From Bacteriovoracaceae bacterium (GTDB lineage Bacteria; Bdellovibrionota; Bacteriovoracia; Bacteriovoracales; Bacteriovoracaceae): DNA of 37,415 bases. The position numbers and the translations under genes are program-made. The stretch covers positions 1-37,415 of the forward strand of contig JAIPEG010000025.1 in NCBI GenBank assembly GCA_021737405.1. The letters run 5' to 3'. How positions within the stretch are numbered: position 1 is the first letter of the stretch; the number at the start of each line of letters is the position of its first letter. The notes below the pieces were generated by a model. The model was not told the DNA's origin, did not search any database, and saw only the letters and a list, made by a program, of their open reading frames with translations. This document shows positions 4,511-5,083 of the stretch, in pieces.

Positions 4511-5083
4511 TTACTGTAAGTAAAGTTTACTGCGCGCGGCTGCTCTCATTATTTCGTTTCTTTCTTGTTGAGAGATTAGCCTTTCTTGAAGAACCTCTTT
4601 TGAAACCTTTGATACACAACTTACAAACTGCCCATGGTTTTTAAAATCATTTTCATCTCTGTCACATGACATTATTACAACTTGTAAACCACTGCATCCT
4701 TCTTGATCAATATAAACATCTTGTGGGGTCTCTGAACAAAGATCATCATTGTCTAAAACACCATCGTTGTCAGAGTCAACATCTCCTCTGGTTCTAAGGA
4801 CGAGATGAAGGGTTGATTCTTTTTGAATATTATAATCACTCAGGGTTCTGCCATCTTCGAGAACTTCTCCGGCAAAAACTAAGTTTTGCTGATCAGGTGG
4901 GATTCCCTCTTTATCTTGGACTTTTGTTTTAACATTCTCGATTGTATCTGATGCCTCAACTTCCAATGTTATCGTTTTTCCTGTTAATGTTTTTACAAAA
5001 ATTTGCATAGCAAAGGCTCTAGTTGGTAGAACTAAAAATAAAAGCAGCATTGTGAAAGTCAAATAACCTTTAAAGCTTTTCAT
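4511..5083 (-). CDS. Secreted ubiquitin fused to a TSP3-like segment and a C-terminal domain
   Basis: 190 residues from the ATG at 5083, with AGGGG six or seven bases upstream. Residues 1-25 are a signal peptide ending in AFA, so cleavage leaves ubiquitin Met1 as the new N-terminus. Residues 26-101 are ubiquitin: 67 of 76 positions match human ubiquitin as I recall it. Changes are P19A, A28T, I30V, R42N, I44V, K48E, Q49V, L73T and G76D. Lys6, 11, 27, 29, 33 and 63 and the Leu8/Val70/His68 surface remain. Residues 103-132 (DVDSDNDGVLDNDDLC, GC) match thrombospondin type 3 calcium-binding repeats. The last 60 residues contain NHGQFVSCVSKVSKE, a helical segment seen in other TSP3-bearing bacterial proteins; its function is unknown. 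Without Gly76 and with an extension, ordinary conjugation seems impossible unless it is processed. The gene probably came from a eukaryote by transfer. A role as an exported mimic, inhibitor or decoy is inference. Confidence 0.95.
   Translation of the reverse strand: MKSFKGYLTFTMLLLFLVLPTRAFAMQIFVKTLTGKTITLEVEASDTIENVKTKVQDKEGIPPDQQNLVFAGEVLEDGRTLSDYNIQKESTLHLVLRTRGDVDSDNDGVLDNDDLCSETPQDVYIDQEGCSGLQVVIMSCDRDENDFKNHGQFVSCVSKVSKEVLQERLISQQERNEIMRAAARSKLYLQ

Follow-up and report, generated by a model that had tools for sequence, protein, structure and literature searches.

A predicted exported ubiquitin with an Asp-rich loop and an unfamiliar tail in a Bacteriovoracaceae bacterium, and its signal-bearing relatives in other bacteria

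Ubiquitin counts as a hallmark of the interior of eukaryotic cells, and the bacterial ubiquitin-like proteins of the Bil, CBASS-type and Pup systems also act inside the cell, with conjugation enzymes of their own. Bacterial surface proteins with TSP3 repeats and OmpA-type anchors carry DxDxDG loops followed by a Cys, which are calcium-binding spacers. The closest described system to the gene reported here is BfUbb of Bacteroides fragilis, an exported ubiquitin with a signal peptidase site at ubiquitin Met1 that its authors consider eukaryotic-like (accessible text of PMC5705921). BfUbb is 63% identical to human ubiquitin (accessible text of PMC3352274). Bacteroides fragilis is described as one of few bacteria with a eukaryotic-like ubiquitin (PMC5705921), and the accessible part of a 2024 review names only the Bacteroides fragilis ubiquitin (PMC10892293).

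We analyzed a 37,415-nucleotide stretch of DNA from a Bacteriovoracaceae bacterium (the window), in which an open frame that starts with an ATG at position 5083 and has no internal stops encodes a ubiquitin-containing protein (Table 1). The protein belongs to the ubiquitin family (PF00240) in both sequence and fold over 72 positions, scoring 100.3 bits (E 4.9e-29) in a Pfam search with a curated cut-off of 25.4, and chance is excluded as the source of this match. An AlphaFold structure prediction, which an earlier reading made from the sequence only had proposed as a check, models the ubiquitin part confidently (pLDDT 91-97), and all 50 Foldseek matches listed against the PDB are ubiquitins, with TM scores of 0.88-0.97 normalized to single-ubiquitin targets. 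These results support the claim of that reading that this is a true ubiquitin, beyond a mere ubiquitin fold. A residue-wise comparison with the human sequence likewise confirms its count of 67 identical residues out of 76 (88%). The nine differences are P19A, A28T, I30V, R42N, I44V, K48E, Q49V, L73T and G76D, so that Lys48 is gone and six lysines are retained.

Table 1. Features of the ubiquitin gene and its immediate surroundings in the window
Feature	Positions	Strand	Evidence
Whole gene: predicted exported ubiquitin, TSP3-like loop and helical tail	4511..5083	minus	open frame, 190 aa + stop
Predicted signal peptide, residues 1-25, AFA then ubiquitin Met1	5009..5083	minus	sequence; junction recurs in relatives
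Ubiquitin, residues 26-101 (ubiquitin positions 1-76)	4781..5008	minus	Pfam, model, fold
Asp-rich calcium-loop-like stretch DVDSDNDGVLDNDDLC, TSP3-like, ~residues 101-121	4721..4783	minus	sub-threshold Pfam TSP_3, NCBIfam
C-terminal part, residues 122-190, cysteines 130, 140 and 156, no known family	4514..4720	minus	AlphaFold model, searches
Terminator-like hairpin directly downstream, 10 pairs (4 G-C) then T-rich run	4407..4433	minus	hairpin scan

The residues that precede Met1, MKSFKGYLTFTMLLLFLVLPTRAFA, read as a signal peptide, and we predict export, as the sequence-only reading had done. The protein thus has the two marks of BfUbb, a signal peptide ending at Met1, with cleavage predicted by rule only, and the lack of a C-terminal Gly-Gly. 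Gly75 is followed by an Asp at position 76 and 89 further residues, so the protein has no free Gly75-Gly76 and none that cleavage after Gly76 could expose. Given that Gly76 is replaced and the chain extended, this ubiquitin would therefore not be a conjugation donor, and the claim that the conjugation tail is lost holds. The G76D change itself is present as an Asp at that position, but it is merely the first residue of DVDSDNDGVLDNDDLC, the first Asp of the Asp loop. The E2 family (PF00179) has no match in the window genome, which is 84% complete, in a search whose controls matched nowhere either.

The Asp loop had been called a TSP3 segment. The DVDSDNDGVLDNDD loop is plainly visible in the sequence, but its score against the TSP3 repeat (PF02412) is 13.0 bits, under the cut-off of 25, and we refer to it as TSP3-like only. 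The NCBIfam model anchor_PA1041 matches residues 101-135, also below its cut-off. Behind the loop, residues 122-190 include the motif NHGQFVSCV, and three of the four cysteines of the protein (116, 130, 140 and 156) fall within the final ~70 residues. In the AlphaFold model, residues 116-160 mostly have a pLDDT below 50 and residues 154-188 form a predicted helix. The final ~70 residues show no recognized family in Pfam or NCBIfam, and no OmpA-type or other known anchor.

When residues 102-190 were searched in the protein database, only the self-match was found. Among the 368 genomes of the phylum the window is the sole match to the pattern NHG.(F/Y)V.CV, and the tail has zero matches in plasmid records. 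Searched against 128 further family genomes, a 59-residue piece of the tail matched a single one (E 0.0096), which we reject as chance because the matching stretch has a stop and overlaps other frames. The whole protein also matches two genomes of the phylum, G038 (E 4e-4) and G064 (E 1e-3), through the Asp loop (residues 101-135) alone (98 genomes), and the tblastn alignments of relatives L019 and L023 extend, at low identity, to residues 152 and 143. As far as protein-database, family, phylum and plasmid searches reach, the last ~60 residues appear to be new. The novelty suspected earlier for the tail is borne out, in that these residues have no credible relative and the loop itself has weak kin in two phylum genomes.

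We then compared the protein with its relatives. A scan of bacterial and archaeal records, with one genome per species, confirmed 208 loci, and all shares given here refer to the best 80 of these. A signal-peptide-like hydrophobic segment ends exactly at ubiquitin Met1 in 72 of the 80, and the -3/-1 signal peptidase rule fits at Met1 in 71 of those 72. Since the search word FAMQIFVK spans part of this junction, we also counted after setting aside the 22 loci in which it occurs; a signal-like start is found in 50 of the remaining 58. The eight loci without such a segment (L021, L030, L033, L046, L055, L058, L063 and L074) were left out, and one more (L057) has no start codon within the set limits, leaving 71 relatives for the domain, divergence, neighbor, entropy and lysine analyses. 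The 72 signal-bearing relatives keep 60-75 of the 76 human residues, but only three keep Gly75-Gly76. According to the labels in their records they belong to ten named phyla, two having no phylum label. Strain-named records account for 27 of the 72 (single-cell record L051 is left out of this count), and one of these relatives lies on a complete Pseudomonas protegens chromosome; a re-search of 20 strain genomes matched all 20, as it must by construction. A database search with the whole protein, of which the best 120 of 7958 scored proteins were used, was dominated by polyubiquitins and is uninformative on bacterial kin.

Many relatives carry a surface module behind the ubiquitin. Pfam matches for the window protein and the 71 relatives, tallied over the 25 commonest of 52 families found, include autotransporter (23), SLH (7), IPTL-CTERM (6) and T9SS sorting (5) domains, so that at most 41 of the 72 members have one of these four anchor families; fn3 occurs in six. 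The fusion idea, for which the sequence-only reading knew of no description in a TSP3 form, is not unique in view of this comparison. The window protein shares with this surface set the ubiquitin and the predicted signal before Met1, and has no recognized anchor in its tail.

Some exported ubiquitins are free-standing. In Pedobacter cryoconitis (L084:7231-8633), four tandem signal-ubiquitin genes encode 96-97 residues each; three of the products stop at ubiquitin residue 72, the fourth one residue further on. Three Dyella records have free short ubiquitins, two ending at residue 73 and one in Gly-Gly. Since the free relative of Dyella sp. OK004 (L029) and an IMG/VR gene (L086) end in Gly-Gly, donor loss is not universal. 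Eight ubiquitin loci lie on IMG/VR contigs. Three of them (L088, L089 and L090) are near-identical signal-ubiquitin genes, the one in L088 with IPTL-CTERM behind the ubiquitin. A terminase pair lies near the gene in L088 and in L089, and its families differ between the two contigs, which is the pattern that a cargo gene beside packaging genes would show. Named phage records gave zero matches, and the phage link comes from the IMG/VR contigs alone. On another contig (L093:3076-3816), one with a phage-type DnaB-like helicase, ubiquitin is the N-terminal domain of a 246-residue protein that has no signal peptide. Three of 72,556 plasmid records match, the best being pRUMAL01 of Ruminococcus albus (L111), where the ubiquitin gene is in a same-strand run with genes for a protein with a PI-specific phospholipase C domain and a dockerin protein.

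Whether the window or any of the relatives reflects a chimeric assembly or eukaryotic contamination can be weighed at this point. Several observations favor such an artifact. The eight relatives without a signal-like segment include probable eukaryotic contigs binned with prokaryotes, such as the four-unit polyubiquitin L021; the window genome (G000, a 3.36 Mb assembly in 56 contigs) is incomplete; and the GC3 of the ubiquitin gene (0.26) and of the neighbor at 3403-4194 (0.27) falls short of the 0.31-0.39 seen in seven other window genes. However, the window gene lies inside its contig, begins with a predicted bacterial signal peptide and is followed by the terminator-like hairpin on its own strand (terminator-like sites in the whole stretch number 2, against 0.6 expected from shuffles). 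The same contig has Bdellovibrionota kin in the form of a patatin gene, whose best named relatives include Bdellovibrionales, Bdellovibrio and Bacteriovoracaceae, a second signal-ubiquitin gene occurs in the same genus, and the 27 strain-named records have the same start. Because of the position within the contig, the hairpin and the Bdellovibrionota kin, contamination of the window gene is unlikely, and we give a chimera or contamination as an account of the whole data set hardly any weight. The artifact that would have undone the sequence-only reading is thus unlikely.

The window gene is the sole ubiquitin-family match in its genome. Ubiquitin genes are found in two of 368 genomes of the phylum, both in this genus, where one of the six other genomes (G004) has one. 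The G004 protein combines a hydrophobic leader with a ubiquitin, with 66% identity over residues 10-110, but its tail and neighbors differ; the earlier proposal to look for Bdellovibrionota homologues and conserved neighbors thus yields a homologue without a shared tail or neighborhood.

As for the surroundings of the gene, the neighbor at 3403-4194 is a reprolysin-like protease gene with one relative within the genus, and the low GC3 of the two genes is a slight hint that they arrived together. A diverged direct repeat, consisting of a terminator-like hairpin and ~40 bases, flanks the ubiquitin gene at 4400-4475 and ~5250-5325; its local score is 55, compared with 29-41 for shuffles, and it might mark an inserted cassette. 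The neighbor at 600-3281 has a match in the window genome and in all six others of its genus, one of these six near full length (49%). We rejected a clean empty syntenic site because there is only this one near-full-length relative and the sequence that follows it differs. Elsewhere in the window, the short frame at 5359-5646 repeats, at 66% identity, the C-terminal 87 residues of the protein encoded at 13201-14202, and the two are separated by the gene (5647-12645) for a protein of 2332 residues that includes a Peptidase_S74 chaperone. At 36021-36644, a Gp49-like gene (just sub-threshold in Pfam) sits beside a small regulator-like gene in a toxin-antitoxin-like arrangement.

The eukaryotic affinity claimed earlier for the window ubiquitin is supported. 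The nearest eukaryotic unit is six differences away and the nearest bacterial unit seven, too similar a distance to favor either. That the gene came straight from a eukaryote or a eukaryotic virus into this lineage does not follow. The tree (223 rows, 72 columns) has only six starred branches among 219 inner ones; it needs 32 label changes, only three of which are forced by well-supported branches. Neither one transfer nor many can be claimed from it, because 72 columns are too few to resolve it. The sporadic presence of the gene in the phylum is equally compatible with acquisition from other bacteria.

Divergence among the relatives indicates how the ubiquitin has been treated within bacteria. 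Pairs from the same tail family whose tails are 38-50% identical have ubiquitins that are 81-99% identical, with silent sites that are saturated or have more than one change per site. This pattern indicates that selection has preserved ubiquitin inside bacteria, so that a close match to the human sequence cannot be put down to recent capture alone. The strength of this constraint varies, since some closer pairs show the reverse, as in Pseudomonas L072 and L073 (ubiquitin 79%, tail 91%). These data bear on the idea that the ubiquitin is a pure scaffold, a stable N-terminal cap that aids export or protects its passenger and whose identity to human ubiquitin reflects recent, repeated capture from eukaryotes. 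Several of the ubiquitins are 0-2 residues from a eukaryotic unit and some captures may be recent, as the label changes of the tree would also allow, but the preserved ubiquitins beside diverged tails and saturated silent sites weaken this idea, and fold stability alone does not require that exposed residues such as Lys63 be invariant. We consider a pure scaffold improbable.

Constraint also differs between the faces of ubiquitin. The positions relaxed relative to eukaryotic units are Q49, R72, R42, T9, V70, Q40, I44, L71 and K48. With residue sets for the faces and the core that follow the literature and not structural coordinates, the Ile44/E1 face averages 1.03 bits of entropy in the 71 exported relatives, compared with 0.31 in the core and 0.43 outside both, whereas in eukaryotic ubiquitins the Ile44/E1 face has 0.18 and the remaining non-core positions 0.31. 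The eukaryotic set comprises 170 units from the best 120 of 7958 proteins, an uneven sample of top-scoring polyubiquitins, from which units with at least 66 of 76 residues as in human ubiquitin were used (154 for entropy, thinned to 104 for the position comparison). The shift has a p value of 0.0002, or 0.0004 after thinning to 26 sequences, and is significant at three thinning levels. His68 (71/72) and Gly47 (72/72) are still held on the relaxed face. Lys29 and Lys63 are present in all 72 relatives and Lys33 in 71, all seven lysines occur in 59 of the 71, and six lysines vary less than the remaining polar positions do (p 0.008, or 0.048 in the thinned set). The Lys63/Asp58 side is almost invariant. 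Judged from these alignments, constraint is shifted: the Ile44/conjugation face is relaxed, and Lys29, Lys33, Lys63 and the Asp58 side are held.

Four changes in the window ubiquitin, R42N, I44V, K48E and Q49V, all fall on the relaxed face. The sequence-only reading, which proposed surface recognition rather than conjugation, had argued from retention of the Ile44 patch; given these four changes, that argument points to the wrong face, and the relaxation of this face in the 71 relatives, His68 and Gly47 aside, contradicts it. What is supported is the lack of a free Gly-Gly end, together with the predicted export. Changes like the window's loss of Lys48 and change at Arg42 occur in none of the 71 relatives; the window ubiquitin may therefore have diverged toward a role of its own.

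Our preferred reading, to which we give somewhat better than even weight, is that the window gene encodes an exported ubiquitin head that would engage an extracellular partner and would not act as a conjugation donor. Given the sequence and build of the protein, from which we infer binding, export, cleavage and calcium binding, such a head is likely. The protein would be exported by Sec and then cleaved by signal peptidase between AFA and MQIF, freeing ubiquitin Met1. With an Asp at position 76 and the chain running on into the tail, there would be no free Gly-Gly end and no donor function. The ubiquitin would sit at the N-terminal end of a surface-anchored protein, as domain matches suggest for many relatives; the Asp loop would be a stiff, calcium-binding spacer, and the tail, with its cysteines, would serve to hold the protein or to multimerize it. 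The constraint suggests that the partner would read the Lys63/Asp58 side, or modify lysines, rather than the Ile44 patch. A protein of neighboring eukaryotes (grazers, hosts) is our first guess for this putative partner, and another bacterium our second. The missing recognized anchor, with a tail end unlike any other found, counts against this reading, as do the window's own changes at Lys48 and Arg42, the hold on His68 and Gly47, the relatives that end in Gly-Gly, the pairs with the reversed selection pattern, and the presence of a ubiquitin gene in just one of the six other genomes of the genus.

A SET-fold protein, a predicted methyltransferase, adjoins the exported ubiquitin gene in ten relatives (L006, L007, L009, L011, L019, L023, L047, L052, L077 and L083) from nine genus-level groups. 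Its identity came from fold alone, as sequence searches gave no name; in these relatives it is of the predicted SETD3/SETD6/LSMT type, with a SET fold and a C-terminal helical domain. The SET-fold neighbor is common to two anchor types. In one bacterial family, the SET-like model matches seven of 187 genomes, six of which also have ubiquitin. The 59 genomes searched in the window lineage, that of the window among them, gave no SET-like partner in a search that had no positive control, and we reject it as an account of the window gene.

A broader and, in our estimation, rather doubtful proposal is that all of these genes belong to an extracellular ubiquitin system, phage-carried and spread over at least 11 phyla, in which a donor-dead, acceptor-intact ubiquitin is displayed on the surface and its lysines are the working part. 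The lysines would be written on by the cells that are touched or, in the ten loci, be methylated before export by the dedicated SET-fold partner. Under this proposal the Met1 amine would be freed by signal peptidase, six or seven lysines would be held, the donor face and Gly-Gly would be let go, and the SET-fold partner would stay with the ubiquitin even when the anchor changes.

The exported ubiquitin could instead be an antibacterial weapon like BfUbb, one that enters or touches competitors and blocks something essential. Small free proteins, such as the four tandem Pedobacter cryoconitis products and those of the three Dyella records, could diffuse, and the phylum of the window lineage, Bdellovibrionota, includes bacterial predators. 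The SET-like protein, however, is the widest-spread neighbor group across the 71 loci and is not immunity-like, and up to 41 of the 72 members match one of the four surface-anchor families and would not be free. BfUbb, the one exported ubiquitin that has been studied, inhibits other Bacteroides fragilis strains as a 76-residue protein (accessible text of PMC5705921), but a bacterial target would permit drift such as that seen in BfUbb (63% identity to human; PMC3352274), whereas the 72 relatives keep most human residues. An antibacterial role therefore seems unlikely to us, although among the rivals of the preferred reading it would rank first, ahead of the stable cap and then contamination.

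Because exported ubiquitins occur here and there in ten named phyla other than that of the window, nearly unchanged and mostly without Gly-Gly, it becomes testable what it is outside the bacteria that requires a ubiquitin surface. These natural ubiquitins, with the conjugation face free and the other faces held, are a long-run experiment on the purpose of each face, and the SET-fold partner is a genetic handle on them. The set is absent from the accessible parts of PMC5705921, PMC3352274, PMC10892293, PMC3482391, PMC12660748 and PMC7203096. For the set with surface anchors and its shifted constraint, as for the SET-fold partner and the window tail, we found no published description, in a search outside which most subscription journals lie.

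Among known systems, the window protein differs from Bil, CBASS-type and Pup proteins in its predicted export and in lacking a free Gly-Gly end. Its Asp loop followed by a Cys resembles those of TSP3-repeat and OmpA-type proteins, but no OmpA-type anchor stands behind the loop. The secreted ubiquitin-extension proteins of plant-parasitic nematodes have the same order of signal peptide, ubiquitin and C-terminal extension, but are eukaryotic, and their extension, of 12 residues, is cleaved off in the plant (accessible text of PMC5705921); the window protein has no Gly-Gly end and an extension of ~90 residues. BfUbb had been called unrelated in the sequence-only reading, but it too is a ubiquitin that is exported, with a signal peptidase site at Met1 (PMC5705921), and it shares with the window protein the lack of a C-terminal Gly-Gly and, as predicted for the latter, export and cleavage at Met1. 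BfUbb (ubb) differs in being free-standing, with 76 amino acids in its mature form, in its lower identity to human ubiquitin and in ending in Cys (accessible text of PMC3352274 and PMC5705921), whereas the window protein, at 67 of 76 human residues, is fused to the Asp loop and the helical tail. Since BfUbb shares the Met1 junction and the lost Gly-Gly, exported ubiquitin is a kind already known, to which the set with surface anchors, its altered constraint, the neighboring SET-fold protein and the tail would be additions.
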